Origin: Ulota crispa
Lineage: Eukaryota; Streptophyta; Bryopsida; Orthotrichales; Orthotrichaceae
Length of the DNA: 64,000 bases
NCBI GenBank assembly: GCA_963920765.1
Contig: OY987246.1
Coordinates: 17,666,868 to 17,730,867, forward strand
Direction of reading: 5' to 3'
The notes beneath the pieces are model-generated. The model was not told the DNA's origin, did not search any database, and saw only the letters and a program-made list of their open reading frames with translations. Both the position numbers and the translations under genes were made by a program. Each line of letters starts with the position of its first letter. Position 1 is the first letter of the stretch. Below, in pieces: positions 7,380 through 58,729 of the stretch.

Positions 7380-8257
7380 TTAACCCCTAAACTACCAAGG
7401 CCATTTTCTACCAAAAACTACTCAAAATTGCCCTGATTGCTACGTTCATCAAAAAATTTAACAAAATGTTTTTTTTTGAAAATCTAACCATAGGATCTTG
7501 TAATGCACTTGTAGAAGAAGAAGTGGTAAAAATTTCGTGACATTTGATTGTACAGATTGAAAATGTGAGCTTTTGAAGGGAAAAGTTTTTTTTTTCCATT
7601 GTGCCCAAAAATTTCAAATGACTTTGATTGACATTTGCTGATATTTTTTGCACTCCAGACCTTGAAGAGGTAATTTTGTCTTACAAGTAATCAAGTAAGA
7701 CCTTTGTACACCAATTTTCAAGGCAATCAAAGACACAAAACACATCCTAAAAAACATTGCAATGCCATTGTATGACAAGTTTTGCAAATACACTATGACA
7801 TTTTTTAGTGAAGTTTCCCACCACATGTTTTTAGATATAGAAAATCCAAATGGTATGTTTGAAGATGAACATGTACTTCAAATGTCAAAAAGTTAAAAAA
7901 CTCTAAAACTTTAAATTTTAGAAGCTCCCAAAGCCCAATATGACCTCCTAATTGGAAATGAAAGGGGAAATAATGGGGACCACTAGAGCAACATGTGGCA
8001 ACCCCTCCTTGCTCCCCCCTTCAAAGTCAATATTTCCTCCCTTGCCCAAGCTGCCCCTCAAAGTGCTTTTGGCTAAAAAAACCAGTAACTTGTGAATTGT
8101 GTGACATAATCACATGATTTTTTGCATCCCACAAACCTTATACATTCCTCCACACTCATAAAAAGTTTCCAAAAATTATGTAAAAAATTGAGGTCACACG
8201 AGCCTACCCAAAATCCCAAAAGTTCCCCGAGGGGGCTTTGGGGCTTTAGGGGTTTAA
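7380..8257. mobile_element. TTAA element 1 (piggyBac-like MITE)
   Basis: Begins TTAACCCCTAAACTACCAAG and ends GGGGCTTTAGGGG followed by TTTAAA, so the right target site carries an extra T. About 0.88 kb, no transposase frame. The right end is decayed relative to better-kept copies. Confidence 0.7.
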
Positions 8258-8460
8258 AATGTAAGCATTCTTCAAACTAGTGAAAAAAATGAAAAATACA
8301 TCTCTAACAGTTTTGACTAAGAGATGGATGAAAAAAATTCACCAAATACAATACAATCAATGCTAATTTGAAATTGTTTCATCATCATATGCATAGTGGA
8401 TGCTAACCCTCTTAGCTCTAAGAGTAAAATAGTACTTTAATTTGCAACCCTCTGTCCCAT

Positions 8461-9045
8461 AGGTAGCTCAAGAATGGATATGAAATGGTTGTTGAATGGA
8501 TCTCCTCAATGCATAGAAGAAAAGGTATATTCTATTGCAAGAGCCTATCATACTCCTTGGTTTCACCTCATCTCTTTACAAATTGTAGACTAACAATTTA
8601 TGGAAAACACAATATTTGTTAATTTGGGAAAAAACCTTGATTTTGGGAGTTTTGAATCATTATTTTTTAAGAGTTTAAAAGTGATTTAGATTGAATTTTA
8701 TGATGGTTTCTTCAAGACCTTACATCAATGATGAAATATCTTGAAGGAATTATCAAAAGACTCACTTTAAATCTCCAAAATATTCTCACAAATGCAAAAT
8801 TTAGCATCGCCAAAATCCGTTTCGGGAAAGTGTTTTTCCCAAATTAACAAATATTGTGTTGAGAGTCCTAGAGTCACAAATAGGTGTCTTTTACAAAAAA
8901 AACTTTGAAAATTCATCAACAATTCAATAATACTTCAAAATATATGAAAAAAATTATATTACATTTGACATCCATTCCTCTTTATCTGAAAATTAGACAA
9001 AAAAATCTTCTTGTCTCACAAATCCCATGAAAACGCAGACCAGCA
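8461..9045 (+). mobile_element. Dispersed repeat family K, copy 1 (interrupted)
   Basis: Colinear with 46376-46730: shared blocks include TTTCACCTCATCTCTTTACA, GAAAATTCATCAACAATTCA and AATCTTCTTGT near the end. The 46376 copy lacks the 255-bp insertion at 8606-8860, which dates the insertion as younger than the repeat. Function and superfamily unknown. Confidence 0.7.
8606..8860. mobile_element. MITE inserted in repeat K (family L)
   Basis: Terminal inverted repeat AACACAATATTTGTTAATTT extending into GGGAAAAA, essentially perfect over about 27 bp. A relative with similar GGGAAA-bearing ends lies at 21583-21840. Too small to encode a transposase; superfamily unassigned. Confidence 0.85.
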
Positions 9046-9220
9046 GCTTAAAATGGCTATTTTAGAGCATACTACCTTTACTATACTAAATGCCGGTTCT
9101 CCTCGGACCCTGGCCCCACATAAGAAAAGTCCCAATTCCCGATTTGGGAGGATCTAGAAAGTAGCCAGTTCTGGTGGGGCCGTTTGACAAAGGCTGTTTG
9201 CGGCTTTGCGGTGCCGTCAC

Positions 9221-9524
9221 TACACTGAATATTGCATTTGGGTTGCCTTGACAATTAGGTTGCCTTACCATGGTAAGTTACCTCATGACTCATCACTTGA
9301 CCACTTGGAGGCACATACAACTCACTAAATATTTAGATTTCACATGATTTATGACTTGGAAATCACTAGATTATTCTTTTGCAGCTTCAATGTTGTTTAG
9401 GCCCTCTAAAAATGATTTATTGCAGTAACTTTTGATGAAAAATACTGTAGCATCAGTAAATACTCATATAGTGTGAAATGTCGAGAAATTAGAGTGGGGC
9501 AACCTAAACGCAATATTCAGTTTA
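9221..9524. mobile_element. TA-flanked MITE family B, copy 1
   Basis: Left end TACACTGAATATTGCATTTG, right end CGCAATATTCAGTTTA, so TA lies outside a CACTGAATATTGC-type inverted repeat at both sides. Internal landmarks shared by the family: TTGCCTTACC, CCTCATGACTCATC, TTTGCAGCTT and AGTGTGAAAT. A TA target and CACTG tip suggest a Tc1/mariner-type MITE; inferred. Confidence 0.8.
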
Positions 9525-9799
9525 GTGTCTCTCCCTCCTGCCTTTAATGCTCTGCTCTTGTCCCTGCCAAGGTCCGGGACGAATCGTCTGTTGCTTCAAA
9601 GCTAGCCGGTTGGATTCAGAAAAAACAATTTGTAATTTCTAAACATCTACTTAAAATTTGATGAAAAATCAAACTTTTTCATATTCACAGAGAATTAATA
9701 GGAACAGTTCCTTGATGAGAATTGAAACAAATCAACTGGTTGGACTCAAATATTTCTTAGACAATGGTCCTTGCCTATGCTTTAGTCTTTAAACTTTGT

Positions 9800-15722: not shown

Positions 15723-16428
15723 TTAACCCCTAAAGGACCAAGCCCCTTTTTGGGGACAAATGGGATTTTGGGCATGTATCTATGACTAAACTATTTTGCT
15801 TGGTTTTTTGAAATTTATATGAAAGATGGAGAATTCAAAGATTTACGTGGGCATCTAATTTTTTTTGCACTTTGACATTTATTGAAGAAGTTAAAAATGA
15901 ATTTCTTGGGAAAGGTCCAGATTGGGCAGCCCAAAAAATTCTTAAAAATTGCTCAAAAAATAAATAAAAATATGAAATAGGTTCTTTAGACTTATATATA
16001 GGTGGAGAGCTTTGAATTATTTGATTTTCATTGATGAGATGAAAGTTATGAGAAGTTTTTGTTTGCAGGTAGGTGTGATTTTGAGAGAAACCATACCTAC
16101 CCACAAACAAACCTCTCATAACTTTCATCTCATCAATGAAAATCAAATAATTCAAAGCTCTCCACCTAGACATAAGTCTAAAGATCCTATTTTATATTTT
16201 TATTTACTTTTTGAGCAATTTTTAAGAATTTTTTGGGCTGCCCAATGTGGACCTTTTCCCAAAAATTCATTTTTAACTTCTTCAATAAATGTCAAAGTGC
16301 AAAAAAAATTAGATGCCCACGGAGATCTTTGAATTCTCCATCTTTTGTATAAGTTTCAAAAAATCATGCAAAGTAGTTTAGCCATAGGTACATGCCCAAA
16401 ATCCCATTTGTCCCCTTTTAGGGGTTAA
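15723..16428. mobile_element. TTAA element 2: near-complete hairpin
   Basis: TTAACCCCTAAAGGACCAAG at the left, CCCCTTTTAGGGGTTAA at the right. The two halves are inverted copies of each other almost from end to end. Very similar peptides can be read on both strands (15835-16173 minus and 16012-16332 plus), which shows the symmetry and not two genes. The centre is around 16080-16100 (GGTAGGTGTGATT against ACCATACCTACC). Confidence 0.9.
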
Positions 16429-17087
16429 TTCCTAAATGCCCAAGGCACCCAATTTGGGTGTTTGCAAAACTTTGAAGACAAACAATACCTTATCAAATCA
16501 CTATTTTTGGTATTTTCTTTTGAACACAAGTTTGTTTTGAAGTCTATTTTCAACATCAAAAACCTAATATAAGAAATGAATATGGATGATTTTTCTACTC
16601 AAGATTTTGTACAAGGGTGTTCACTGCAATCTTGAATTTTTTAGTGTTGGAAGATCTTGAAAATGAGCCTCAAATACACTAGAGCTTGGAGAAAAATCCG
16701 CATTAGAAATACATTTTAAAAAAAGTACAAGAGTAGATTTTGAAAGCTGTAAATTGACTAAAGTTAAACATGTAATGACCTTAAAGTCTTAAACCTCATA
16801 TTTTTTTGATGATCAACTTTTTAGATTTGACATGTGAAATGAGGATTAGAAAACTTCAAGTTACTTTTTGCAATTTTAACACCCTTATGTTCAATCGTTA
16901 TAATCTTTCAAACTATAAGTGATATTGTTGTGTTCTCTTTTTCCATGTAATTTCTAACATGTCAAGTTTAAATTTGTACGGTTACAGTTGAAAAAAACTT
17001 GACAAAGTTTATGAAAAGGTTGGTTGATTGTGCACTTTCTTGAAAATGCCAAGAAATTCAAAAAGGCCTTGGGCATTTAGGGGTTAA
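16425..17087. mobile_element. TTAA element 3, TAAATGCCC subtype
   Basis: Left TTAATTCCTAAATGCCCAAG (two C-to-T changes at the tip), right CCTTGGGCATTTAGGGGTTAA. The left TTAA is the right TTAA of element 2, so the two abut sharing one target. Interior relative of 32233-32886 in inverted orientation. Confidence 0.85.
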
Positions 17088-17823: not shown

Positions 17824-18737
17824 TTAACCCCTCAAGGACCATTGTCTCCTTGGGGAAAAATGGGATTTTGGGCATGTACCTACAACTAAACTACTTTGTG
17901 GATTTTTTGAAGCATTTATAGAAGATGGGGAATTCAAAGATTTACGTGGACATCTAATATTTTCTTCATTCCAACATTTATTAAAGAAGTTATGCAATAA
18001 TTTATCAAAGCTAGGGGAAGAGGGGCACTTTGGCCATGGCCTCTGCTTTGCAAGTGGGTGTTGACTCCAAAGAGGATCAGCCCTTCTAAGCACAAAGGTG
18101 TGGACACTTGGGCAAAGGGGAGTGGAATGGAAGGAACCCGTCTTGGAGGACTCCCAACCCTCCATTCCTTTTGCCCCTTGTAAAATTTGGTAATTTCATT
18201 TTTTTAGTAGTTTTTTTAATATGTTATTTTCAAGTTGTAATAGGCTAATAGCCCTTGCCTTTACCATTTAAATTATCGTAATTCAAATTTCTAAACTTTA
18301 CATAAATCCTCCATATTTGCCTAGTGCATGTGCAAATTTCATGACCTTTTGGCATTCAAAAAAAATTGAAGTACGTTTAACACCTCAAGTTCATATGTAA
18401 ATTCTCCCACACAAAACTAACTTTGTCTTCTACATGGAGAAATTAAACCTCAACTTTGTGTAGAGCAATTTTTGCTATAAAAGTGGTCAAGGCTTCTGAA
18501 ATTTTTGGGCAACAGAGAAAAAAACTTTTTTTCTTCACTTCAAATGTCAACATCTCACTCCTCACCATCTGAAATGACCCAATTCTCTTCCCACAACTAC
18601 CTTCCATAGTCTAGAGAAGATCCTAAGGTTGGATTTTCAAACAAACTTCTTTTCCTACTTTTCTATTCATTCCCTCAAAAATGGTAGTTTTCAATGATTT
18701 CTCATAGAAAAAAAGAGCTTGGTGTTTTAGGAGTTAA
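17824..18737. mobile_element. TTAA element 4 with GC-richer internal segment
   Basis: Left TTAACCCCTCAAGGACCATT, right TTGGTGTTTTAGGAGTTAA. The left 170 bp matches element 14 (GGGATTTTGGGCATGTACCT, ATTCAAAGATTTACGTGG). From about 18010 to 18180 the sequence is markedly richer in G and C and has no counterpart in the sibling elements. Confidence 0.8.
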
Positions 18738-20899: not shown

Positions 20900-21563
20900 T
20901 TAACCCCTAAAGGACCATGACCTTTATTTTGTCAAAAGACACTCAAAACTGCCACTTTTATGGCAAACTTTGCTAACTATGTCCGGGTAATTTCAAAAAA
21001 AAATAGTTTCTTCTAACTTCAAGCCCTATCATCTTGCATTCCATAAGTTCAATGTTTTTAAAACTTTTGTCACATATTTGAAATGTTTGCCTAGAGCTAA
21101 CTTTCTACCATTCAAAATCCAAATAAAATACTTCTTCATTGCACAAGAAATCATGAAAAAATGACTAGTATATTGCCAATTCACTAAACCTCCTTGCACT
21201 AGAGGGTGATTTAGAATAAGTTAGATTCTATATTTGCTTCTGAATTTTTTCATGATTGAACCTAACATCATATACTTGTGATTGGTAAAAAAAATTGTTC
21301 ACTCCAAGAGGGCTCGAATTCTGCTGACCTTGTTTTGCAAGAATGAAAAAAAATTGTTTTTCTCACTTCAAACACTATAACCTTACAATCTACGCAGTCA
21401 AACGGGCTGATTGTTTTTTTCACACATTGCATTACTTGTATATTACACTTCTATACGGTTGAAACTTTAAAGAAAATCTATTTTGAGTTTCAAATAAACC
21501 ATGAACAAATGGCAGTTTTGGTCTTGTTTTTCTCTGCAGCACCCTTTGGACTTTAGGGGTTAA
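20900..21563. mobile_element. TTAA element 5
   Basis: Perfectly placed TTAA at both ends: TTAACCCCTAAAGGACCATG and TTTGGACTTTAGGGGTTAA. 664 bp, non-coding. The region around 21000-21180 resembles, inverted, 24240-24440 of element 6. Confidence 0.9.
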
Positions 21564-21840: not shown

Positions 21841-23114
21841 GGTGGGGAGCAGATTTGGTTGCTCAATGTTGAATTGATTATTTTTTTAGAAGAAATCAAT
21901 TTGGCATTAGATTTTATAATTAAACAAAATTAGGCATTTTCAAAAAAGTTGTTATTATTTGGCATTCAATCAAAAAAATAGTAGAATTAAGTCTTTTTCT
22001 AAGCATCTTCCACATTCTAAAATTAGCACTTGGTAAGAAATTTGCAGTACATTGAACCCTCTTGGAATCAACCTCGACCTTAGTTTAGCTTAATGACTTT
22101 TATAATATTTGGCATTTTAATTTTTGATTTATTTGACATTGGGCATTTTTGGAGAATAATTTATAAAATAATTAGGCAAAGTTTTGGAAAATTAATTTAT
22201 GCCGAATCTGTTATCAACCTACAGTATGCTAGAGTTGTTATTTCTATCAAAAGTGACTTGGTTGGAAGGATAACTAGACTTTGGAAATGCATCCGAGCAA
22301 TAATTTCACTTTTGCATACAGAAGTGGAAACTGGAAAATACTTGGAATTTTTTTATTTTTTACTTTTTGTTGTTGAGGATGCTTGGACTTATTGAGTTAA
22401 GCATTATTACGTATGGGAAGATTTCGAGGTCATTTGTTTGAGGTCTTTAACTTCATTACACCAAGCAAACAACAAATAAACAATATTTGTGATTCATGTT
22501 ATTTATGTTTGAATGACCATTCGATTTTCCTTTGTTATCATAGAATCTAGATAAATATAGAATTAAAAACCTCTAGTGAATATTTTATACTTTATAAATA
22601 TATTTTACAATTTCTTCCTGTATTTGCATTGCAAAGTTTGATAGGTGTTATAAATCCTTAGCTCTTGTTGAAACATGTACAAATGCAAGGATTCATGGCT
22701 CATTGACACCTCCACATCTAATAAACTTTAAATTATGGAAATGAGGGTGGTCTTCAAATACACAATATAACAACACAAATGTTAGTATTAACTTTGGAAT
22801 GCCCAAGCTAACCATTTTGAGTCATTTGCATTCTTGCAAAAGTTATTATGTCATTTTATAGCAACTAATTCCATTCACCCAACATTTGTTGAGATATATT
22901 CCACAAATAATGTCTTTTCTTAGGACTTCATACGTGGTTTTTCTTTAAAAAAAATATAAAAACTGATTATCAAGTGGGTGATTGAGGTTATGCCATTTGG
23001 ATGTAAATTGACGAATTTTTTTTTAATGTAATGTTGTCTTTCGTCACTACTAATCCAAGTTTTAAATTACAACCTTATTAAGAGAACAATGGTTAAATGT
23101 AGTACATATAATGT
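21841..23114. other. AT-rich stretch without recognised gene
   Basis: A 100-codon plus frame (22093-22395) reads a hydrophobic, Ile/Phe-rich peptide with no motif recognised and no start or splice support. Best treated as chance in AT-rich DNA. Confidence 0.4.
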
Positions 23115-24802
23115 TTAACCCCAAAGGACCAAGGGTGTTTTTGAGAAAAGATCTTAGAAACTGCCAGCTTTTAGTGCATTGCTCAAAATTGAAATAAAAA
23201 CCTTTTTCCTGAATTTCAATCATAAAAAGTGTGTTGAGAAAATAAATCAATGTGTGCAAAAAAATTCAGCCCATTTGACCTCGTGGATTGTAAGATTATA
23301 ACATTTAAAGTGAGAAAAACAAATATTTTTCATTCTACAAAAGAAGGTCAGCAAACTTCAAGTTTTCCTAGAGTAAACTTTTTGCTCTACATAAAAAATA
23401 GGTTTTTATCCATTCATAAGTATATGATGTTAGGTTCCCTCACAAAAAAAATTCAGAAGCAAGTGGGTAGTTGCAAGAATGGCCTCTCCGTTTTTGTCTC
23501 AAACACCCTTAGTACTGGTAGTACTAATAGTACTACTGAGCTTTTGGAATATATTTTTTTTAAATAAAACAAAACATGGACAATTTGTAAAGCACTTAAA
23601 ATAGCATACTTGTGAAAATTCAAACTTAGAAAAATTTTATTCTAAAAGTTATGCACAAAACAAAATCACCTTAAAAAGCTAATTTCTTTCTTGCTTTTTA
23701 GAAATAGTAAAATAATTCAATAAAATCAAATAAAAAATAGCCATTTTAGAACCCATTAAACACATTCACATGGTACAATTGCTTTGTTGAGGAGTTTCTT
23801 TGTATTTTGCCAATGAAGGGAGATAGGATGCCCACTTTGAGACAATGTAGAGGCCATGGAATTTATAATTTTGCAAAACCCTTCTACGAATGCATATAAG
23901 CATGCTCCATAACAACATCCTTGATTTATAGCCCTAGAAAAGCTTTTTTGGACCCAAAATAGTACTAAAAACCCCCAAAATGGCCAAGGTAGACACCTAT
24001 TTTGGGGCTGCTTAGAAATAGCAAAATAATTTAAAAAAACACCAAAAAATCACTGAATGTCAATAACTTGCATGTTCATGTTATCCTAAAAGGACAAGTC
24101 GATATGACTTCTTTTGCAAAAGTTACAAGCAAAAAACAAGCCGCAACAGGTGAGAGGGACAAAATGTAGTACAGGTCATTCTTGCAATCACCCAAATATA
24201 GAATTTAGCTTTATTTTAAATCACCGTGCAATGCAAGGTAGGTAAGTGAATTGGCACAGCAGTAGTCATTTTTTCATGATTTATTGTGCAATAAGAAAGT
24301 TTTTTATTTGAAATCTGAATGGTGAAAAGTTAGAGACAAACATGAGGAATGTGAAAAAACAAATTAGAAGCTTTGGGTTTATAGATTGAAAGATAATAGG
24401 GCTCAAAGTTAAAAGAAAATATTTTTTCTTGAAACCGCCTAAACATAGTTAACAAAGTTTGACCCCTCTTAGAATGGGACGTGAGAGCTCAATTTATTTT
24501 ATTTGTTGACAATTGTGATCCATATTATACTGGTTACATTCATGCCAACTTTCAAAAGTTGATGAGAGTTTTAGCATAAAATTCCCCAAAGATGCCCAAA
24601 CTGCTCAAGTTGCCCAAATTCTTTTAGGTAACATAACTTTTGAACCAGGCATCTGATTGGGGAAAAATTACATTTCCACTTGGAGATACATATTTACACC
24701 TTGTGTAATAATTTGAAAACATCCAATAAAATTTAACTCTGTATGACCCTACCCAAATTCTCAAGTATCTTTTGAACAAACACTTGGTCCTTTAGGGGTT
24801 AA
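23115..24802. mobile_element. TTAA element 6, long copy
   Basis: TTAACCCCAAAGGACCAAGG at the left, CTTGGTCCTTTAGGGGTTAA at the right. 1,688 bp, one of the two longest copies, but no frame beyond about 105 codons and no piggyBac catalytic region visible. Might be two fused or nested copies. Confidence 0.8.
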
Positions 24803-25407: not shown

Positions 25408-27111
25408 TTAACCCCTAATTAAGCGCCCAAGTCATTTTTACCCAAATTAGGGTTTTGGGAGACCTATGACTTTGATGCATAATATCTCAGTCAATCAAAT
25501 GATCCATAAAAAAGTGACCATTGAAAACAGTGAAATACTTACTTGGAAAACAACTTGGAAATTTTGAGAACAGTTGACCATGGGACATAGGAAATTATCG
25601 CATTTGATTAAACAACTAATGATGGCAAAATCTCATTTTTTGGCAAATAGTTACTATTTACCAATTTTTACAAAATTCATTAAGTCTTTGATTTATCTCA
25701 AATTTTGTGAGAAGCTACACTAGATGTGAATGCGCACACTTGCAAATTATGAAAGGGTGTACTTTTTGTATGTTAAGTTTTAGGGCTTCAAATTGCCATT
25801 GTTCAAAAAATAGTGACCAATAGAGGCAGTGAGGGCTATCACAACAAGGATCTAGAACATGCTTACCTCCTTGCCGGTAAATATTTCTATTATTATTATA
25901 CAGCACATGCAAGGAAGCTTGCAAGGGATATTGGAGCGTGTAACCTGTTGCTTGCTAAGGTAGGGTGTTCTTAAAGCGACCTTTTAAGAGCTGATTGCAT
26001 TTTGGAGGAAGAAAAACTCCTTGAAATAGTTTTCCTTAACTTTTGGTAAGAAGAAAAATGGAATTGGCATCTAACCCAAGTCATTTCATATTTTTTGAAC
26101 CTTTGTGGAATTAGTTATGAATTTTTGAAGTTGAAACCTAGTGATCACTAAAAGTGACCCCCTCTTGGAATGTACATTCTAGGTACATTGAAGAAAACAA
26201 AATGTACCTCTATTTTAGAGGTCGCTTTTAGAGCCGGGTCAACTTTAGAGCACCCTACCTTACTTTGCTTTATACAGTGATCCACCCACTTGAGGCTCTT
26301 GGAGCACTTGTACAACATTTGACTAGCGGGTGGATGCATGGTTGGCTGGACCAAAATGCGTGTCCCATTCAATTTTCAGGAACATGTTTTGATTGCATGG
26401 CTTATTTCTTATAGAAGAAAGAGCTTGGAAACATCTTAAATTAGTGAACATATTCTATATTTGTTCATAAAACAAAATATGTAATCAATGTTTGTTGAAT
26501 TTGATAATATAAGAAATAAGGGACTTTTCAATGCATATATTTGGACTGTCCCATTCACAACATCCTATGAAAATGATAGACATAATGTATCAAGTTAGCT
26601 ATAATGCGTGCATAGGGACTACATATGTGATTTAGCATCTTCTAAGTATTTCAAAAACGTGCTATAATTTTAGACAAGTGGTATACAATAATAGCTATGG
26701 ACTTTTTAGTGCCCAAATTAAGGTTGAATGTTTAGGTGGCAACATCTTAATGATTTTAACATTTTTTTTAGTTTTTAATTTTTTTCTTTTGCAAAAGCCT
26801 TCATAATGGCTACATGGGCTTGGTCTTTTTTTGTAGGATGCATGTATTTGTATAAAGGAAAACAAACACTTTGTGATCCATACTCACAGAAATCTCAAAA
26901 TTTTGGACTTTTTATGAGGTTTTAGCTGCCATTTTTGGTCCACTCGACCATGCAAACTCCTGAGCCTTACCATTACTCCACTTACATGGACTACTTGAAT
27001 GCTTTGATAGTTGTATTAATAGCAAGGTCAAAAAATTAGATCAAGTGCCTTAAAGAGGCTTGTGAAATCCTTTGAGGACGCTTTTAGTCTTGTGGGGCTT
27101 TTAGGGGTTAA
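25408..27111. mobile_element. TTAA element 7, interrupted
   Basis: TTAACCCCTAATTAAGCGCC at the left, GGGGCTTTTAGGGGTTAA at the right. The tips are preserved but the subterminal sequence differs from the consensus. Contains the nested AAGGTAGG element at 25955-26263. Confidence 0.7.
25955..26263. mobile_element. AAGGTAGGGTG-ended MITE (family C-prime), copy 1
   Basis: Ends TAAGGTAGGGTGTTCTTAAA and TTTAGAGCACCCTACCTTA. The interior AATTGGCATCTAAC and TTTTTTGAACCTTTGTGGAA matches 53875-54149, confirming a family. Inserted in TTAA element 7. Confidence 0.85.
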
Positions 27112-27924: not shown

Positions 27925-29105
27925 TTAATCCCTAAAGGCCCAAGCCCTTTTTCTATGAAAGTCACTAAAAACTGTCACTTTTGGGGGAATGAGTAGAAAT
28001 GTAGGAATAATTTTTTGTTGGAAACCCAACTATAAGATCTTGCCCTAGACTATGGGAGGTACTTGTGGGGGAAAAATTAGCTCATTGTAGATGTATAGGA
28101 GTGAGATATTGACATCTAAAGTGAACAAAAAAGTATTTTTTTTGCTCCCCAATCATTTTAGAAGCCTTTGACTGCTCCTATTTTTTTTTTTTTAAATCTA
28201 TGCAAAGTCAAGGTTTATTTTTTTCATGTAGAAGACCAAGCTAGGTAAGTGTAGGAGGATTTTCAATGAACTGGAGGTGTGAATCATACTATAAAATCTT
28301 GCAATGCTGTAAGGCCATGAAATTTGCATATATACACTAGGCAAAATTGGAGGATTTATGTAAAATTGAGAAATGTGAATTACTTTGATCTAGATGGTGA
28401 AAACCAAGGAATCTCAACTTATTACAACTTGGAAAAAAAATCAAAAAAAAATTTAAGCACCAAATTTTACAAGGGACAAAAGGAATGGAGGTCTAGGAGT
28501 CTAATACCTACCTGCAAACCAATTTTTTCACTCATCAATCAAATCGAATGATTCAAAGCTTCCTAGATATATATAAATTTAAAGAACCAATTTCAGATTA
28601 TTATTTTTTAAATGCAAATTTTAAAGAAGTTTTTGGGTACCCACTAGACGACATTATTTTGTGAGCATAGAATGGTGAGCCTGTGAGCAGTGAGCCAAGA
28701 TTTGGTGAGCATGAATTACTTGATCCCAAAATCAATGGAAAAACTGTAAAAAAACTAGTTTGTTAGAAGATAAAGGTTTAAAATGTATAATTATAAGGCC
28801 CTATGTACACAATTATAGGTGAAATTGAATATTTTGAAAAAAAATCTCTGCTTGCGACTCACGGCTCATGGATCCCCGCTCATGAAATAGCATTCCCCGG
28901 TACCCGCCCTCTCCTATTTTCAAAAATTCATGCATAACTTTTTCAATAAATGTCATAATGAAAAAAATGTTAAATGCCCGTGCAGATTTTTGAATCCCCA
29001 CCACCCTCAAAAGTTTTAAGAATTTTATAAAAATTAGTTTAGTCATAGGTACATGCCAGAGGTCCATTTGTCCCCCGAAGGGACACTTGGGCCTTTAGGG
29101 GTTAA
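27925..29105. mobile_element. TTAA element 8
   Basis: TTAATCCCTAAAGGCCCAAG and CTTGGGCCTTTAGGGGTTAA. The right 200 bp inverts the left part of elements 2, 4 and 14 (CATAGGTACATGCC, TTTGTCCCC). Confidence 0.85.
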
Positions 29106-30715: not shown

Positions 30716-31332
30716 TCACCAAATAGTGCATTTCGGTTGCCTTACCTTAGCAAAGATACCTCATGACTCACCCTTGGCCACCTGGAGGGGCATGCAACTC
30801 TCTTTATGCTATGATAATTCCTAGTTTTGTGTAAAGTTCCAACTTCCTTGCTCCTTGATTTTGGCGCTTGTTGCTGCGCACAACCTTTGGTTGCTTTCTC
30901 CCTTGGTTATCACGGTAATTATTGACAAAAGTTATTGTAAGGTAGGAACATCCATAAGCGTTAGTGTCCCCATAACCGTCACCTCTGAAATCTTGAAAAA
31001 TCTGTGAAAATGAATAAATGTAACTACAAGGATGTACAACATGTGAACATGAAACCTTGGTGTTGGTTGTGGGTGCAGTGGCATTTTGTTCTTTAAAAAT
31101 TCACAACTTATTCTCACAATATCCAAACAATACATTCGAAAGTGCAAACTTATTTTTTTTCTGTTCCTAACAAGATCCTATAATTTGCTAGCTATTTATT
31201 AATGCTTATCATGTTCAAAACCCTTAAATTGACGCTTACGGGTGCTCCTACCTTAATCTTGGTAAGTCTTTAAATAGTGCAAAATATTGAGAAATCGGTA
31301 TGGGACAACCTAAATGCATTATTTGGTATAGA
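30716..31332. mobile_element. TA-flanked MITE family B, copy 4, interrupted
   Basis: Begins CACCAAATAGTGCATTTCGG immediately after copy 3 and ends CCTAAATGCATTATTTGGTA. Split by a family C element at 30938-31255, inserted just after the conserved GTTATTGTA landmark. Confidence 0.75.
30938..31255. mobile_element. MITE family C, copy 2 (inverted, nested)
   Basis: Ends TAAGGTAGGAACATCCATAA and CGGGTGCTCCTACCTTA. The interior is the reverse complement of copies at 11721 and 34433. Confidence 0.85.
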
Positions 31333-31702: not shown

Positions 31703-31936
31703 TTAACCCTTAAAGTACATACCGTGCCGGTGCAACCAGTAGAATACAAGGTGTTTTTCTTGTATTTGGACTAGATTCATACTTTTACTACAGTTAAAAT
31801 CAACAATAAAGTTGGAGAATATATCAAATTTGTTCTAATGAGCTATTAGAAATTTCAAGTTAAAACTTCTTTTTGGTAGCAAATGCCAATTATACGACAG
31901 CGTATATACTATGCCCTATGATCCTTTTAGGGTTAA
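31703..31936. mobile_element. TTAA element 9, short diverged copy
   Basis: TTAACCCTTAAAGTACATAC and ATGATCCTTTTAGGGTTAA, 234 bp. One C is missing from each tip relative to the consensus. Confidence 0.6.
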
Positions 31937-32232: not shown

Positions 32233-32886
32233 TTAACCCCTCAAGGCCCATGCACTTTATCGACTATCTCAAAATCTGTTCTTGGATGAACAAAATGTCA
32301 ACAAAAATAAGTTGCATCAATTTTTCTGAATTTTAACCGTACAAATTCAAATTAGATATGTTAGAGATTACATAGGAAAAGAAAACACCACAATATCACT
32401 TATGGATTGAAAGATTATAACATTTGATCATTTGATCAAGAGGGTGTTAAAATTGTGAAAGTGATTTGAAGTCCTTCAATCCTCTTTGTACATCTCAAAT
32501 TCGAAATTGAGGATACCAAAAAAATATGAGTATGTAAAGTACAACATGTGTAACCCTAATCAATTTACGGCTTCTTAAAATCTACTCTACAACTTTTTAA
32601 TTAAGTTTCTAATGTGATTGTTTCTCCAAGTTCTAGTGTACTTTAGGCTCATTTCCAAGAGCTCTCAACGCTAAAAAGTGAAGATTCGCAATGGACACCC
32701 TTGCACAAAATCTTAAATAGAAAAATCATAATTAGTCATTTTCAAATAAGACTTTCTGATATTAAAACAAGACTTCATCAAGAACTTTAAAAAAAAATCA
32801 TTGTAATTAATCATGAAAAAATTTAGACATCCCAAATTACAAACAAGGAGGGACAATTTTGGTCCCCTTGGGCCTTGAGGGGTTCA
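32233..32886. mobile_element. TTAA element 10
   Basis: Left TTAACCCCTCAAGGCCCATG, right CTTGGGCCTTGAGGGGTTCA, so the right TTAA has become TTCA. Contains inverted relatives of element 3 (AATATCACTTATGGATTGAA, CTTTAATTAAGTTTCTAATG region). Confidence 0.8.
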
Positions 32887-34016: not shown

Positions 34017-34432
34017 TGCTAATGTCCAATAATGCGTGTGACCGTTGCGAAATAAATAAATAAACTGGAGCTTTCCTGAGGAGGAGGAGAAGGAAATTTT
34101 CTCGGGGTCAAGAGTCAAAAAGGAGCTTTGCAAAAACACAGGGCCAGTGCGGGTGTCTGTCAAGGGGGGGAATGATGAGTGGAGACAGGATTGGGAATTA
34201 AATGCCCAGCTCCCTTCAAACATCTCATTGGGGGGTAGGCCCACATGAGTCCATGACAACAAGCAGGCGACTTTAATTGCCATGTCTCTCCTGCACATCC
34301 GAAGGACAGGCTGTCCGTGCGGTACCCGGCCTGTTCCTAGCCTGTTTCATTAATGGGGCTCTTGGCTCTCACCCCATGTATGATGGACAAACGAGCATGT
34401 CTCAGAAGCTCAACGTAAAGATATCTCAGCTC
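34017..34432. other. GC-richer island without gene call
   Basis: About 34070-34370 is noticeably GC-richer than its surroundings, with a purine-rich GAGGAGGAGGAGAAGG run. No frame with splice or homology support was found. May be a remnant exon or promoter. Confidence 0.35.
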
Positions 34433-34755
34433 TAAGGTAGGAGCACCCATAAGCGTCAAACTAAGGGTTTTGAACATGATGAGTATTAATAAACAGTTAG
34501 CAAATTATAGGATCCTATTAGGAACAGAAAAATATTGAGTTTGCACTTTTGAATGTATTATTTGTATACTATGAGAATAAGTTGTGAATTTTTAAAAAGC
34601 AAACTGCCATTGCACCCATAACCACTTTCAAGGTTTCATGTTCACATGTTGTACATTCTTGTAATTACATCTATTTGTTTCCATAGATTTTTCAAGATTT
34701 CAGAGGTGAGGTGACAATTATGGGGATAGTGACGCTTATGGGTGTTCCTACCTTA
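34433..34755. mobile_element. MITE family C, copy 3 (best preserved)
   Basis: Ends TAAGGTAGGAGCACCCATAA and TTATGGGTGTTCCTACCTTA. About 320 bp with the family interior. Confidence 0.9.
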
Positions 34756-40308: not shown

Positions 40309-40810
40309 TTAACCCCTCAAGGCCCAGGCAGCCTTTTTCTTGATGTCTACGGGTTTTGGGCAGGTCACTACAAATGAGTTTTGCATTTTTTTTTTTTAAA
40401 TTTTCACACATGAAGTACCCAAGGTGTAGCTGTAAGGTCCAACAATTTTCATGACTTTTGATTGCATGGTTCAAAAGTTATTGCATGATTTATTGTTTTC
40501 TTTGCTCGTCAAGGCAGTCCAAGCAGCTCAAAAACTTCTTTAAAAATAACATTTCAAGTTTGGTTTTTTTTAGTTGGTTCTTAAGATCTATATCTAAGTA
40601 GGAAGCTTTGAATCATTCAATTTCCATCAATGAGATGAAAGTTATGAGAAGTTTTAGTTTCTGGGTAGGTATATTGTTGGGCCTTACAGCTACGCCTTGG
40701 GTACTTCATGTGTGAAAATTAAAAAAAAACAAATGCAAATCTCATTTGTAGTGACCTGCCCAAAACCCGTAGACATCAAGAAAAAGGCTGCCTAGGCCTT
40801 GAGGGGTTAA
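40309..40810. mobile_element. TTAA element 11: near-complete hairpin
   Basis: TTAACCCCTCAAGGCCCAGG and CCTAGGCCTTGAGGGGTTAA. The first ~135 bp (to GGTGTAGCTGTAAGGTCCAA) reappears inverted at the right end (GGGCCTTACAGCTACGCCTT onward) with few changes. Intact TTAA on both sides. Confidence 0.92.
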
Positions 40811-41152: not shown

Positions 41153-42078
41153 TTAACCTCTAAATGCCCAAGGCACCAGATTTTGGTGTCCAAAAAGCTT
41201 CAAGAAATTTTGAAACCATGTTGAAGGCACAAATTTTTATTGTTTTTATGTTTTTTTTTGGAAAAGTTGCGCACTGAAGTTAGCTTCACCATTCAAATTC
41301 AACTTCCTTCATATCTTATTCCAATTTTTTTTGGTGGAAGGTTAATAATTATAAGCATACATTTTGTGTCATGAATAGTGTCATAAAAAGTGTCATGAAT
41401 AGCAATGTGAATAGTGTCACAGAGCCTATGACATTATGCCACATTGAAAAGATCAAGTTGAAAAAATGGTGAAGATTTCCTTTGGGCACTCCCTTGGGCA
41501 GTAAGGGTCCTTTTGCTGAAATTTTGACATCCAACAAAATCTAAAGTGCTTTAGGACTAATTTCAATTGAAATATCTTTGTTATAGAAATTAGGATTCAT
41601 TCACCATTGAATTTTCTTTCCTTCATAATGATTTATGGTCAAAAATTGAAGCTAAAAATTTTCTTTGTGTTAGATAATTACGCTTTTACAATTCCGTTGC
41701 AAGCTCATTTGTGAAATTGTGGTCATGGATTTGGAAGGTGGGCCATTAGTTTTGAAGTAACAACAATAAACACACAAAAGCATCCTAAGTGGCTACTTCC
41801 CGATTTTGTATCCAAAAGTTGTTAATTTGCACTAGAAGTTTTGGCCTCCAAAAAAAACAAAAAATTATACACTCATCATCATTCAATCATAAATATCTCA
41901 AAATCCACTTGGCCATTTTTTATTTTTTTTGGGTAGCGCCATCTAAAAGCCTTGAAGTTCAAGATTCAATCATTACAATTTGATTTTGATATTTAATAAT
42001 CTTCTTACACATACAATTCAAAAACTTCAAAATTGCCTTCCAAAAACGAGAAAAACACCCTTGGGCATTTAGGGGTAA
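41153..42078. mobile_element. TTAA element 12, TAAATGCCC subtype
   Basis: TTAACCTCTAAATGCCCAAG and CTTGGGCATTTAGGGG, then TAAA, so the right target is damaged. Contains short GTGTCATGAATAG tandem units near 41375-41420. Confidence 0.8.
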
Positions 42079-43316
42079 ACTAAGTATTGAAATGGAGTTC
42101 AAACTTACTAGCATAGAGAGAGAGCTAGCTTGCACAACAATTTAGGTGAAAATCAAAATACTCAAATTGCTAAAAAGCATCAAGAATTCAAGATTAAACT
42201 ATAAAATCAATTCTACCTCCTTACATCTGCAACTTAATTTGGCATTTGGCAAGACTAATTTCTACTTTTCACAAATACCTTCTACTACGTGTAAATATTA
42301 TTGACAAGTTCACATCAATGTTATTGTTGCTAAACTTGTCTTGTTGCTTCCACCACCAAAACGCCTTTACCACATTTGCGCCAATTTTTTTTTTTTGGTT
42401 TTGGACAGGTAGCTTCTCAGGCCAGACATGACCCCTACGAGCCTTTCTAAGGCGGCCTTCCATTATCATTAGGTCATAAGGAAATTTTTAAATGGTGCAG
42501 ATATGGTCACATTAGATTTTTTAAAGTACAAAATTAGGCTGCAAGTCTTTGCACTTTGAGCTTGTTGATTAATGATTGAGACTAAATTTTCCCAAAATAA
42601 AAAACTGGTATTGCAAGAATGAATTTTATGAAAATGTGGGTTACAAAACCTAAAACATTATAACAAAAAAGCTTTATATCAAAAAAAAAATTAAGGGCAA
42701 CTTAATTTTCAAATAAGATGGCTCCACATGGCATGAAGATTAGGTTGTTTTTTGCCTAAATTTCTAGTTGATTGGCTACAAACAACAACATAATCTTTTT
42801 TCTATTGTATGGCACACATCTAAATTTGGAACATTGAGCAACATTTAACACCATGAAGCTATTTATTCTTCATTTTTTGATTTTTTGATTTATTTTTATA
42901 GCTTTCTGGCTTTTAAATGCGTAAAAAACCCCTGATTTGCGCTCTTCTAGCCTTGGGATTGCTCTAAAGAAAAGCTAAAATTGTGCACTTGTAGACATTG
43001 CCAACACCGTGAATGATCTTGAATTCCCTTGTTTTCAGGCCATCCAAGAAAATGACAGATTTTCAACCAGCTATACAAAAGATATACAAAGATTTGCTGT
43101 GCCAACGTGTGGCAAAGTCAATGGCATTGTGGTCAAGATTCTATATCGGAACTTGGGCTTTGGTGGCAGCGTCAATGAAAAAACCATCTTGTCAAAAGAA
43201 ATCAAATTTTCCATAAGGATTAGAGAGTTGACATGAGCTCAAGACCAAGTATAAGTATCTCCTTTTTTAATAGGAAAATGAAAAAATGAAAGATTCATGT
43301 TCTTGAAGTGAATTAA
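42079..43316. other. Spacer without recognised gene
   Basis: A plus frame at 43009-43236 follows TTTTCAG-like sequence, but the peptide has no recognised motif. No repeat family identified. Confidence 0.35.
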
Positions 43317-44257
43317 TTAACCCCTAAAACCCAAAAAGTGTTTTTTTTGGCAACATAGCGATTTTGGGCAGTCCACTACAAATGGATTTTTCATTTTTTT
43401 CTTTGAAATTTTCACACATGATGTGTTCAAGGAGTAGCTTTAAAGCCCAACAAATTTCATAACTTTTGATTTCATGATTTAAAAGTTATTGTATGATATG
43501 TAGTTTTCTTTGTTCAAGGGCAGTCCGGGCAGTTAAAAAAACTTTTTTAAAATTTATATTTTTTGAATTTGTTTTTTGGAATTGATTCTTTAGATTTATA
43601 TATACTTGGGAAGCTTTGAATCATTCAATTTTCATCAATGAGATGAAAGTAATGAGGAGATTCTATTTGTGGGCAGTTATGGATTCCCTACTCTAAAAAA
43701 AACTTTTAAGTCCTATGTTTTACTCAATTTTTAGTATTTTGGAAAATAAAATAAAACCAAAGTATGTAGATTGTTTTTTACAACATTTTGACCATTGGGA
43801 TTGGAATTTTCGTTTTTCATAATTAAAATCTTAACGATTTAATGTTTTGTATCATTCTCTACTTCTTTTTACTTACTATTTTTTTCGCATGTGTTGTACA
43901 TTTCCAAATGATTTGAAATTTTTCAAGTATGTACCTGACTTGCCTTGAAGAATGAATACAAAAAATTACAACCATTTTGAAACCTTTTTCATACAAATAT
44001 GACCTTGTGAAGTGCAGCTGCCGGATTTTTGCAGGGACAAAAAATGACTTTTTGTCAATTCAAACTCAATCACCTAACAATCCGCATGGCAAGAATTTCT
44101 GAATTTTTTTCCACATCTTTAGATACTAGTGTACTACAAGATCTTACGGTTAGATGTGTCCAAAAACAATTTTTATCTAAAATTTGATACTTGCACTACA
44201 AATGGCAGTTTTGGAACAGTTTTGATGAAAACATAGTCAAAAGCCTTTTGGGGTTAA
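43317..44257. mobile_element. TTAA element 13
   Basis: TTAACCCCTAAAACCCAAAA and AAAGCCTTTTGGGGTTAA. Left 250 bp matches the left arm of element 11 (TTTTGGGCAGTCCACTACAA, TTTTCACACATGATG). Carries the shared core TCAATGAGATGAAAGT. Confidence 0.82.
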
Positions 44258-44623: not shown

Positions 44624-45554
44624 TTAACCCCTAAAGGACCAAAGTCTCCTTGGGGGATAAATGGGATTTTGGGCACGTACCTATGGTTAAACTACTTTGC
44701 ATGATTTTTTGAAACTTTTATTGAAGGTGGGGGATTCAAAGATCTACGTGGGCATCTAGTTTTTTTTTCATTCTGACATTTGATGAAGAAGTTATGCATG
44801 ACTTTATGAAAAATGGTGTTCAAGGGGTAGCCAAATTTTTTTTTTAAATTTTCATTATTTTCAAATAAAAATCTGAAATAGGTTCTTTAGACTTATATAG
44901 ATGTGGGGAGCTTTGAATCATTCAATTCTAATAGATGAGATGAAAGTTATAAGGAGCTTTTGTTTGCGGGCAATTCTAGATTCTCTACTCTAAAATAAAC
45001 TTTGAAGTCCTTTATTTTACTCAATTTTCAATATTTTGAAAAAAAAACAAAACCAAAGGATGTAGATTGTTTATCACAACATTAGAACTGTTGGGATTTG
45101 CATTTTTCATTTTTATAATTAAATTCTTAATAGTTTAGTGTTTTGAATCATTCTCTACTTCTTTTTACTTACTGATTTTTCCCATGTGCTGTATAGTTCC
45201 AATTGATTTGAAAATTCTCTCACACATACCTAACTTGGTCTTCTACATGGGAAAAATAAATCTCAATTTTGCGTAGAGTAATTTTTTTGATCTAAGAGTG
45301 GTCAAAGCCTTCTAAAATTTCTGGGCAGCAGCAAAAAAAAACTCAAATCTGCAATTCAAATGTAAATATTTCACTCATTTTTTTGTAGATTGAGCTGATT
45401 TTTTTACCACGTGTACCTCTTGTAATCTATTGTAAGATCTTACAATTGAATTCTTGTAAAAAAACTTTTTTTCTTACCATTGTACTTGCTTCCCCAAAAG
45501 TGGCAATTTTCTATGTTTTTCACAGAAAAAATGGCTTGGTCCTTTAGGGGTTAA
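44624..45554. mobile_element. TTAA element 14 (close to consensus)
   Basis: TTAACCCCTAAAGGACCAAA and CTTGGTCCTTTAGGGGTTAA with TTAA on both sides; 931 bp. Left part equals elements 2 and 4, centre carries GATGAGATGAAAGTTAT, and the 44985-45180 stretch matches element 13 (43690-43880). Best reference copy in the window. Confidence 0.93.
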
Positions 45555-46845: not shown

Positions 46846-46863
46846 GGGGGGGGGGGGGGGGGG
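46846..46863 (+). repeat. Run of 18 G
   Basis: Uninterrupted poly-G in an otherwise ordinary spacer (46731-47239). May be sequence-error prone and polymorphic. Confidence 0.9.
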
Positions 46864-47952: not shown

Positions 47953-48031
47953 CTCTAATGCAATCAAATATTTCTATAGTGTAAAATTTTAGGAAATTAG
48001 TAAGGGCAACCTGAATGGAATTCTAGTGTAG

Positions 48032-48538: not shown

Positions 48539-48616
48539 TTAACCCCTCATTGTTGGTGGATCTTGAAATACACGGGAAATGAGAACAATTCATATGCTTA
48601 GGCAATGAGGGGTTAA
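48539..48616. mobile_element. TTAA element 15: 78-bp micro-copy
   Basis: TTAACCCCTCATTG and CAATGAGGGGTTAA are perfect inverted ends around a 50-bp core, with TTAA at both sides. Smallest member seen. Confidence 0.85.
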
Positions 48617-55800: not shown

Positions 55801-57025
55801 CTACGCTTGAACGCGGTGCTGTCACAACAATTATAACGTTACTTTACTCCTACACTAAAAATTGCGTTCAAGTTTGCCCTCACTAATTTCTCGAATATGT
55901 AAATATTTACTACTGCAATAGTTATCATCAAAAATTATTGTAACATTTTTAAAGGGCTTGACAACAACAATGAAAGTGCAGCTGCAGAAAATCAAAAAAA
56001 CAAACTAGCAGCATCCAAGTCGTAAACCATGTGAAATCTAAGTATTTAGAAAGCTGCATGTGCCGCCAAATGGCCAAATGATGAGTCATGAGGAGATAAC
56101 TTACGAAGGTAAGGCAATCTAAATGCAATATTCAGTGTAGAAACCATCACCGACTGCATGCAGCCACCTATTTGCCAAAAATGTTAACTCGAATCTGAAC
56201 ATAAAGCATGGAATGCTACCACATCAAGTCACTCCCAATCTCTTCACTATAAACACACATTAAATATTTATTGGCCAGAAATGCCAGAAGTTCAAAAGAT
56301 CTTTTGTGTCAATTTCCAACGTGCAAACCTGGCTAGCATGCTCTAAAGACTGTAAAAAACGATATGATCTATACAACGTCATGTGATCCCGCAATTTGAT
56401 CTCACCATCCATATCAAGCGTCTTTGACTAGTGATATTTTTCGCACAAGGACTCCGTCAACAATGCAAGACAGTGAGGTCCGGCATATGCGTAAAATTGA
56501 ATAAAAGCGGATAGTGAGAGACAGAGGCCAAACTTGCAATGTGCGGGGAGATTTTGAGCCTTTTTGGCAAAATTCCTACATTTCTCATTTACAAACGGTT
56601 TTCTTAGTGCATGCACCAGATATTGCCTATATACTTACGCTATAAACAGAATTGAAAAAACTCAGTCTGTTTTTAGCCGGTTGAGTTAGGTTTCAATCGA
56701 TTTTTTTCACATCTCATTCGGCTGACTTTCTATTGTTTTTTTTGTTTTGTTTAATTTTTTTTTGCTCTCCCCGTACATTGGACCAAAGACCAAATCCTGT
56801 AAATGAAGGGCACAATGCTTGAGACAATATTCATTGTAAAGCACAAAAATAGAAGTTGGCAGCCACATTAATTGGAAAAGCACCAAAAATGAATTGATTT
56901 TGGCGACAGAGTTCCGGGCTGAAGAGGGAAGCACAATTTTACCTTGATTGGAGGAAGCAAGCGGGCCGGGAAAGATGTTGCGGCAGAGCCTCAAGGATTT
57001 GAATTTTCTGTGACACGAAGTCCAT
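49846..57025 (-). CDS. Candidate multi-exon gene of unrecognised family (incomplete model)
   Basis: Exons inferred: 57025-56943 (starts MDFVSQKIQILEALPQHLSR, donor CAAG|GTAAAA, phase 2); 56602-56329 (phase-2 acceptor, donor CCAG|GTTTGC, but an in-frame TAG at 56430-56428); 54314-54252 (VIKLTFGRILNLSTSEIEDD, donor TTG|GTAATG); 53788-53651 (KVMNDSIEAWADNFDHFQNF..., 46 codons, phase 0/0); 52793-52704 (AHVAKTKLVSELRFSVKSK..., 30 codons, 0/0, donor AAG|GTATGC); 51737-51576 (VYKELTKPDPFYPESL then a KEEQERLMLEQMQAEQ coiled-coil-like helix, 0/0); 51214-51089 (PVALLLIPRKLITVDKEF..., 42 codons, 0/0, donor AAG|GTATGA); about 50120-49846 (WEVFPNIINVDDLGHSLESF..., donor AAG|GTATGA). Four central exons join in frame without adjustment. 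At least one exon between 56329 and 54314 and one before 49846 are missing, since phases there do not match. Introns carry MITEs. Function unknown; no family recognised. It may be a real gene or a recent pseudogene. Confidence 0.5.
50150..50390 (+). mobile_element. Dispersed repeat family H, copy 2
   Basis: ATAAAATCCTTTGTATTTTA, ACAACATTTATGCAAATGGC and TTGGTTACTTGGGCT match 29585-29865. Lies in a putative intron directly beside the exon at about 50120. Confidence 0.65.
52030..52315 (+). mobile_element. Dispersed repeat family H, copy 3
   Basis: TTGAACAAAATCCTTTGCAT, GAAATATTTATGCAGGCTAA and TGCGTGAAGCCCTTACCCTA align with the other two copies. Intronic in the candidate gene. Confidence 0.65.
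52965..53356. mobile_element. MITE family C relative (AAGGTAGAAGCACCC ends)
   Basis: Ends TAAGGTAGAAGCACCCTAAA and GCTTATGAGTGCTTCTACCTA. The interior differs from the 320-bp copies. Intronic. Confidence 0.7.
53875..54149. mobile_element. MITE family C-prime, copy 2
   Basis: Ends TAAGGTAGGAGGCTCGTGAA and AATTAGAGCCTCCTACTT. The interior AATTGGCATCTAACTTAAGT matches 25955-26263. A short duplicated GTGAATGGAGGCTCATGAAT lies near the left end. Intronic. Confidence 0.8.
54917..55527. mobile_element. TA-flanked MITE family B, copy 6, interrupted
   Basis: Left CACTGAATATTGCATTTAGG, right GCAATATTCAATGTA. Carries an insertion at about 55161-55470 between CATATAAAC and GTTTATAGTGTG. Confidence 0.8.
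55161..55470. mobile_element. MITE with ATTCATTAAAAGGGG ends, nested in family B
   Basis: Left CATATTCATTAAAAGGGGAA, right GTCCCTTTTTAATGAACATG. Palindromic CTTAATTCAATTAAG-like core near 55235. No frame. Confidence 0.75.
55851..56139. mobile_element. TA-flanked MITE family B, copy 7 (inverted)
   Basis: Left TACACTAAAAATTGCGTTCA, right TGCAATATTCAGTGTA. Interior is the reverse complement of copy 1 (GCTGCATGTGCC, ATGAGTCATGAGG). Intronic in the candidate gene. Confidence 0.85.
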
Positions 57026-57185
57026 GGAAGTCCACGGACGAAACAATGTTCGGAGAAGACTTGGGCTCAACCTACTGATCACCCGGCCCCGCCCTTTTCA
57101 GCTTCAAACTGGCTGTGGCGCCAACTTAGCCAAATGCCGCCCTCATTCAAATCTTGACCCGCCAAAGAACTTTTATTTTCTATGC
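57026..57185 (-). promoter_or_regulatory. Possible 5' region of the second candidate gene
   Basis: Short GC-richer patch (CACCCGGCCCCGCCC at about 57079) directly upstream of ATG 57025. No TATA box or initiator identified. Confidence 0.3.
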
Positions 57186-57518
57186 AAAATTTCATGGATA
57201 CCCAATACCCCTGAAGTTTGCAATATTTACATAGATACCCCTGCTTTTTCAGAAATTACACAAACACACTTGGAGTCTTGGACCATAATTTTGTAGGCGT
57301 TTGTTTTGTTGTGCATGTCACCTCCCTTCTTCCTTTGTGGGCACATTGCTTCTTTTTGGTTTCATTACATTCCCTTCTTCAACATTGGTCATGAAGGAAG
57401 TATGAGCACAACAAATAAATGCCCAAAAATTATGGTCCAAGGGTATTTGCGTAATTTCTGAAAAAGCAAGGGTATCTATGTAAATATTGCAAACTTTAAG
57501 GGGTATCCATGAAATTTT
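57186..57518. mobile_element. Fold-back element with arms of about 100 bp
   Basis: Left arm AAATTTCATGGATACCCAAT, TTTGCAATATTTACATAGAT; right arm ATCTATGTAAATATTGCAAA, GGGGTATCCATGAAATTT. Core of about 120 bp, non-coding. Sits between the candidate gene's start and TTAA element 16. Confidence 0.88.
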
Positions 57519-57541
57519 CCCTATTTTCTACCCAATTTTGT

Positions 57542-58729
57542 TTAACCCCTAAATGCCCAAGGTTACTTTTCTTGTTTCAAGAAGGAATTTTGGAAGTTTT
57601 TGAATTGTAGTTGTATGATCATAGTATGATAGGAACACCCATAAGCATTAATTTAAGGGTTTTGAACATGATGACTATTAATAAACATCTAGTAAATTAC
57701 AAAATCCTATTAGGAATAGAAAATAATAAATTTGCACTTTTGAATGTATTATTTGGACATTATGAGAATAAGTTGTGAATTTTTAACAAGCAAACTGCCA
57801 TTGCACCCATAACCAACACTAAGATTTCATTTTCACATGTTGTACATCCTTGTAATTACATCTCTTTATTTCCACAGATTTTCCAAGATTTTAGAGGTGA
57901 CAATTATGGGGACACTAACGCTTATGGGTGCTCCTACCTTAAACATTGAAAGAAAAGTATAACCATAGGATTTTGAACTTTCAAGGCTTCTAGATGATGC
58001 TGCCAAAAAAATCTAAAACAACCATCCATATGTTATAATATTTGTGGCTGAATGTATAGATAAGTAAAAATTCATTATTTTTTTTGCACTTGTCTAAAAC
58101 TTGTTACGCCAAACTAGTAGCTTTTGGGTGCAAAACAAGGAAACAATTGCATATGAAGATTTAGTCTTTATTTTTGTTACTTCAAAACAAGTGAATCCCC
58201 TTTCAAATCCATGACAACAATTTCACAAAAGAACTTGCAATGCAATAATCAAAGAGATACCACCTAACACAATGAGAAATTTTAGCTTCAATTATTGGCA
58301 AAAATTATAATGAACAAAGAGAATTAAAAAATGGATGAATTTTGATTTCTATAAGAGAGACATTCCAAGCAAAATTAGCATAAAAATACACTTGAATCTT
58401 ATTAGATGATGAGTTTTTGATATATTGAGGCTCCTCACTAACTAGGGGGAGATCTTGACTTTATTTTCAACTTATTGCCCATTTTTCCAAAGTGGCATCT
58501 TGCCATAAGCTCTTCAATGACACTTTTAATACATAGGCATGCTTGGAATTTAGCTTTTACCAAAAATAATTAAAATGCAACATGAAAAACATTCAAATTG
58601 AACAATGAAACTAATTTTAGACTACAACGTCTCCAATGTTTTTTTTAAAACATTCAAATGTTTCCCTTCAACAAGGTATAAAAGTTTACTAAACACAAAG
58701 TTTTGGCACCTTGGGCATTTTGGGGTTAA
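57542..58729. mobile_element. TTAA element 16, TAAATGCCC subtype, interrupted
   Basis: TTAACCCCTAAATGCCCAAG and CCTTGGGCATTTTGGGGTTAA. Holds a family C insertion at 57626-57942. Confidence 0.85.
57626..57942. mobile_element. MITE family C, copy 4 (nested)
   Basis: Ends ATGATAGGAACACCCATAAG and TATGGGTGCTCCTACCTTA. Interior identical in order to 34433-34755. Confidence 0.88.

Follow-up and report, generated by a model that had tools for sequence, protein, structure and literature searches.

Work on the piggyBac superfamily has treated it as a transposon of animals and insects, and it is used as a gene-delivery tool. Its insect miniature inverted-repeat transposable elements (MITEs) are short non-coding elements with TTAA duplications. 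TTAA duplication is not exclusive to piggyBac; Kolobok and Sola3, each with its own transposase class, also duplicate TTAA. For plants, published sources name PiggyBac among seven angiosperm MITE superfamilies (PMC10004981), mention piggyBac-like elements (PMC8086355, PMC10140906) and, in the C-fern repeat table, list 1,230 PiggyBac copies at 0.00% of the assembly (PMC6890710). Here we analyze a 64,000-nucleotide stretch of contig OY987246.1 of Ulota crispa, positions 17,666,868–17,730,867 (hereafter the window, whose numbering is used throughout). Sixteen TTAA-bounded segments in it are, with high confidence, non-autonomous piggyBac-superfamily elements (long MITEs) of a moss nuclear genome, for which DDE_Tnp_1_7 (PF13843) relatives probably supplied the transposase. 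The best solved match to the LEAFY DNA-binding exon of the 274.8-Mb assembly (locus L041) is 4bhk, which we take to be moss LEAFY, with 104 of 106 aligned positions identical (E = 9e-73 vs 7.4e-51 for the next entry); an earlier sequence-only reading of the stretch as a plant locus is borne out and refined to a moss.

TTAA-bounded segments in the window and across the genome

The sequence-only reading had listed 16 segments that open with TTAA and a fixed tip and close with the inverse tip and TTAA. All 16 exist and start with TTAA at coordinates that were each checked, but TTAA is intact at the right end of 13, the other three being one base off, and the tip CCCCTAAAGGMCC is not universal among them. 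After TTAA, 14 of 16 left tips begin CCY (exceptions 16425, TTCC, and 27925, TCCC), as do 15 of 16 right tips (17824 has CTCC). At two or fewer mismatches to TTAACCCCTAAAGG, the window holds 12 left and 14 right ends, compared with 0–2 matches (both strands pooled) in 20 windows resampled from a first-order Markov model; 6 of the 32 ends are exact, and the tips of 31703 and 43317 match weakly. No transposase was seen in the 16 window segments.

The spans sum to 13,852 bp (13,848 bp after removing a shared TTAA), in agreement with the roughly 14 kb first estimated; because four of them hold nested inserts (Table 1), the net family DNA is about 11.9 kb, 18.6% of the window. Inserts were called foreign on the basis of matches elsewhere in the genome or of a copy lacking the insert, and genome matches revealing them ruled out the four composite spans as single long elements. 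Once nested inserts are removed, element lengths are mostly about 500–1,100 bp. Many window elements have interior blocks in common (72%–100% identity). When 18 TTAA-bounded elements collected from other genome regions were aligned as a library to the window, they covered 7,419 bp within the 16 segments and 0 bp outside them; 25408, 31703, 48539, and 57542 were left untouched, and coverage of 41153 was limited to 36 bp. Other loci retrieved from the genome match 41153, 57542, and 31703; 25408 matches a single one (L028, 184 bp), and the 78-bp segment 48539–48616 may be an element, as judged by its ends.

Across the genome, exact TTAACCCCTAAAGG occurs 7,719 times in forward and 7,692 times in reverse orientation (15,411 in all), against 1 and 0 matches for the reversed-pattern control; TTAACCCCTAAATGCCCAAG occurs 2,742 times. 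Extrapolation from the 15,411 exact ends and the 6/32 exact ends in the window gives about 41,000 elements, a figure resting on one window in which exact ends are more frequent than on average in the genome. TTAA flanks both sides of each of twelve full 16425-subfamily copies drawn from the 39 best matches listed; these copies differ pairwise by 5.7%–10.1%; with the window copy included, copies lie 3.2%–5.8% from the majority base. This is a star-like burst with an excess of C-to-T/G-to-A changes, and the interiors are conserved across chromosome-size contigs. The elements are short, non-coding and of high copy number, and have ends in common with a transposase-bearing element, at both ends in the case of one window element.

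The target site was examined in 60 tips gathered from the window and 20 transposase loci without requiring TTAA, eight loci picked by a TTAA pattern being excluded. Exact TTAA precedes 45 of the 60; T, T, A, and A occupy positions −4 to −1 in 52, 53, 54, and 53 tips, and composition is near random from −5 outward. Genome-wide, TTAA stands before 3,038 of 3,614 exact 16-base CCCCTAAAGGACCAAG tips. For an insertion outside the window, L021:8802–9454, the two flanks, when joined, match window positions 22081–21888 with no gap across the junction, where a single TTAA is present, and this junction is read contiguously in 40 of 40 scored genomic places (of 810 candidates). Among 81 candidate element pairs screened locally, one further empty-site candidate emerged, L040:8462–9378; no empty sites were found for the window's own 16 elements. 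The duplicated target is TTAA, as in the piggyBac superfamily. Sequence inspection had taken TTAA duplication with CCY tips as the mark of piggyBac and had proposed an empty-site comparison, and the four-base conservation, the tips and the single TTAA agree with that expectation. A 3-bp TAA/TTA duplication, as in PIF/Harbinger and Tourist, is ruled out, as TTAA stands symmetrically at both ends of the elements and occurs once in the empty site.

Transposases between matching ends

A genome search with PF13843 gave 120 matches, with E-values down to 1.3e-73 (116 of 528 candidates scored), compared with 0 of 14 control genomes, and 20 transposase loci were examined with their flanks. The L024 transposase frame resembles piggyBat (9c0f, 1.7e-16) and piggyBac (6x67, 3e-13). 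At what we take to be the DDD motif positions, all three Asp motifs are matched by pattern in 6 of the 20 loci (L023, L024, L031, L034, L038, and L039), pointing to a DDD catalytic triad; L033 has Asn at the third motif, and the remaining loci miss at least one motif match or are broken. A Cys-rich tail, a possible counterpart of the piggyBac C-terminal cysteine-rich domain, is seen by eye in L024, L036, and L023. Most listed or scored transposase copies contain stop codons; we therefore claim neither a working copy nor present activity. Two pairs of transposase matches with identical scores lie on opposite strands about 14.5–20 kb apart (G000:C7:18203169/18223004 and G000:C2:36765124/36779670), as if copied by inverted duplications.

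Several of these transposases lie inside longer elements with TTAA-CCC ends, the clearest of which are 5–6 kb. L021:1763–6789 and L030:1797–6822 lie on different contigs and both contain a transposase; over 5,029 aligned columns their identity is 90.5%. The sequences flanking them show no relationship (6 and 9 of 30 bases alike), and their outer tetramers are TTAA in three of four cases and TTCA in the fourth. L024:1767–7512 has TTAACCCCTAAATGCC tips on both sides with the transposase inside; it carries the TAAATG variant of the ends, and its tips align with those of 41153–42079 at both ends. Among the 20 loci scanned, 17 have an end downstream of the transposase, and in 16 of these the nearest is a right end; 14 have an end upstream, the nearest being a left end in 11; and 10 loci have a clean left-and-right pair by pattern. 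The proposal that an autonomous partner exists or existed elsewhere, to be sought as a DDE_Tnp_1_7 gene within the same ends, is thus matched by a partner class, with L024 having both ends in common with a window element.

A tree of 19 of the 20 transposases contains several deep clades. By inspection, clade largely tracks end type, with CCCCTAAA(T/G)G in L024/L036/L023, (C/T)CCTTTA-like ends in L025/L033/L040 and CCC(C/T)TCAT in L021/L030; L028 joins the L024/L036/L023 clade but bears a different end. It follows from this pattern that the TAAAGG/TAAATG MITEs of the window most likely belong to the L023/L024 clade.

At least some of the segments are internal-deletion derivatives of the 5–6-kb relatives, as the alignment of 41153–42079 shows. 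In the mechanism that we propose, the DDE_Tnp_1_7 transposases of these relatives would recognize the common TTAA-CCC tips and subterminal DNA, excise the element and integrate it at a different TTAA, so that TTAA flanks it on either side; elements that lost the interior and kept both ends could then have been amplified by transposases acting in trans. Movement of the present copies by these transposases is what we infer, and the chemistry of excision and insertion, like the action in trans, is presumed by analogy with the superfamily, which is marked by seamless excision through TTAA hairpins.

Upstream of the transposase domain, by about 1.6–4.5 kb and in the same direction, lies a conserved coding region with a motif like WRYLFyRqIAKlLGW, detected in 14 of the 20 loci at E ≤0.01 (15 at E ≤1), two query loci included. 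The region was not matched in L022, L023, L024, L035, or L036, of which L024 and L036 share, weakly, a different upstream reading frame (39% over 71 residues). Matches to the L033 version fall in 47 merged places genome-wide. At 21 of these, a scored transposase lies no more than 6 kb downstream, on the same strand (0.24 expected by chance); none has any other arrangement of the two, and 26 have no scored transposase nearby. Four upstream frames searched against Pfam yielded no hit above the cut-off, and PDB profile (best E = 0.031) and fold (best E = 1.8) searches gave no convincing relative of the region; its AlphaFold model shows four helices (mean pLDDT 66.9) and is too weak to place. The region may be the transposase's first exon or may encode a second protein. 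Known piggyBac transposases are described as having non-conserved N-termini that are predicted to be disordered (PMC11707139); if the upstream region belongs to the transposase protein, a conserved helical character would thus be unusual.

Alternative origins of the segments

Several observations tell against a piggyBac origin. Three right TTAAs of the window are mutated (TTTA at 7380–8256, TTCA at 32233–32886, TAAA at 41153–42079), and the junction alignments of L040:8462–9378 are ambiguous as an empty site. No fully intact transposase gene was demonstrated among the copies listed, 10 of the 20 transposase loci have no clean end pair (L027, L031, and L032 have no end at all), and some of the ends counted belong to neighboring MITEs (e.g. 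L036:965 and L037:8115). The two-ended link to a transposase element concerns one window element only, 41153–42079, and the AAAGG subfamily was matched at one end only, by L023. In addition, TTAA is palindromic, so that an empty site alone cannot tell a TTAA duplication from TA with fixed neighbors: an identical one would result if TA were duplicated and always flanked by T and A. This last point is what Tc1/mariner-like (Stowaway-like) MITEs, with a TA duplication, tips of the form ACCCC...GGGGT and a T-TA-A preference, have in their favor, since the two duplications look alike in the empty site. It is the sharp four-base conservation and the transposase class only that set this origin aside: the outer T is as conserved as the inner bases (52/60) with nothing conserved beyond, which also rejects a TA duplication without a fixed outer T/A, and elements with such ends contain a PF13843 transposase. 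We regard a Stowaway-like origin as very improbable.

An origin of the MITEs in another TTAA-duplicating superfamily, Kolobok or Sola3, with the piggyBac transposases as bystanders, gains from the non-exclusive nature of TTAA duplication and from the restriction of the both-end tie to one window element. Yet L024 has the same tips around a piggyBac transposase (no Kolobok or Sola3 profile was searched), and several transposase clades each have their own TTAA-CCC end variant, which leaves such an origin just as slight a prospect as the Stowaway-like one. Chance palindromic ends or an assembly artifact, suggested by the 78-bp segment at 48539 and some weak tips, are scarcely credible and are rejected for the set as a whole, given the near absence of matches in resampled windows and of the reversed pattern in the genome, and the conservation of interiors across chromosome-size contigs. 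Non-autonomous piggyBac-superfamily elements remain by far the best account of the 16 segments.

Features of the window and comparison with known systems

Table 1. TTAA-bounded elements and the empty-site paralogue in the window
Positions	Strand	Feature	Remarks
7380..8256		TTAA-bounded element, 877 bp; right TTAA altered to TTTA	left part similar to right end of transposase locus L023 (67%, 381 bp)
15723..16428		TAAAGGACC subfamily, 706 bp	long inverted arms, 324 bp aligned at 93%
16425..17087		TAAATGCCC subfamily, 663 bp	one TTAA common with neighbor; 39 other scored full or near-full copies, 89%–91% (best 40 of 4,513 first-look candidates scored, window copy included)
17824..18737		AAGGACC subfamily, 914 bp	inner inverted repeat weak
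20900..21563		AAAGGACC subfamily, 664 bp	
21888..22081	-	empty-site paralogue of insertion L021:8802-9454	single TTAA, ungapped junction
23115..24802		1,688-bp element with foreign ~730-bp insert, about 23464-24193	uninterrupted relative L037:7147-8115
25408..27111		1,704-bp element with foreign ~629-bp repeat, about 26328-26956	weakest of the long ones: 25-bp terminal inverted repeat (TIR), 84%
27925..29105		1,181-bp element with ~265-bp insert, about 28638-28902	insert relative to L029:414-1352
31703..31936		234-bp derivative of longer copy at L030	genome match
32233..32886		654-bp element; right TTAA altered to TTCA	related to 16425
40309..40810		502-bp element	138-bp TIR, 96%
41153..42079		927-bp element	both ends similar to the two ends of transposase-bearing L024: 82% over 556 bp, 72% over 141 bp
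43317..44257		941-bp element	325-343-bp blocks common with 40309 and 44624, 81%–83%
44624..45554		AAAGGACC subfamily, 931 bp	both ends exact
48539..48616		78 bp between two matching ends, candidate	ends alone
57542..58729		1,188-bp element with foreign ~312-bp repeat at 57630-57941	blocks 1-81 and 398-876 similar to one L024 end region

Other repeats are present in the window. A separate repeat with TAAGGTAGGAGCACCCATAAGCGTTA tips occurs at 30938–31272, 34416–34755, and 57630–57941, the last nested in the 57542 element and having 39 listed matches at 86%–92% (of 5,769 candidates for the whole query). The repeat nested in the 25408 element is a high-copy one, found in at least 39 other places at 91%–93%. 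Inverted ends around CACT(ACACT)GAATATTGCATTTRGGTTGCC bound 9218–9527 and 54921–56137, whose membership of CACTA is doubtful because no clear 3-bp duplication is seen. On the minus strand, a 757-residue open frame (2175–4448) contains a VARLMGLE motif, which we take to be that of LONGIFOLIA-like plant proteins, and is likely such a gene.

With respect to mosses in general, the evidence tips us modestly towards an old, highly diversified and distinct piggyBac branch, with 5–6-kb elements, a second conserved helical domain or protein upstream of the transposase, co-diverged clades and ends, and deletion derivatives that would form a main DNA-transposon component of a land-plant genome (the copy number, roughly 40,000, being the one-window extrapolation). 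A moss genome full of piggyBac deletion derivatives and diverged transposase lineages shows that piggyBac is capable of growing into one of the main forces shaping a land plant. The natural series of matched transposases and ends offers a system for studying recognition co-evolution, the role of the conserved companion region in transposition is open to experiment, and moss genome annotations in which such repeats are labeled unknown may have to be reconsidered.

The sequence-only reading knew of no large piggyBac MITE radiation in plants. We likewise recognized no description of piggyBac MITEs or a radiation of them in mosses, or of the conserved upstream region, in a literature coverage that was partial, so that an earlier mention is possible; in a moss-genome paper the term matched just 'piggybacking' (PMC10619864), and a Fontinalis paper contains no word beginning 'transpos' (PMC9631980). 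Because piggyBac-like elements in plants are already in print, what seems novel here is limited to the scale and to how the elements are built.

The moss elements are similar to piggyBac of Trichoplusia ni and piggyBat of Myotis with respect to the TTAA target, the tips starting with CC and a DDD PF13843 transposase resembling 9c0f and 6x67. In contrast, T. ni piggyBac is given as 2,472 bp (PMC10140906), compared with 5–6 kb for the clearest moss transposase elements; many of the moss elements have the extra conserved region about 1.5–4.5 kb upstream of the transposase domain, and they reside in a moss, whose genome contains more than 15,000 exact ends. Among plant MITEs, Stowaway (Tc1/mariner) and Tourist (PIF/Harbinger) are alike in being high-copy, non-coding and targeted to A+T-rich sites, but their duplications are 2 or 3 bp (PMC10004981) and their transposases are different. 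The insect piggyBac MITEs are also short and non-coding with TTAA duplications; here the host is a moss and several end-sequence subfamilies are present.

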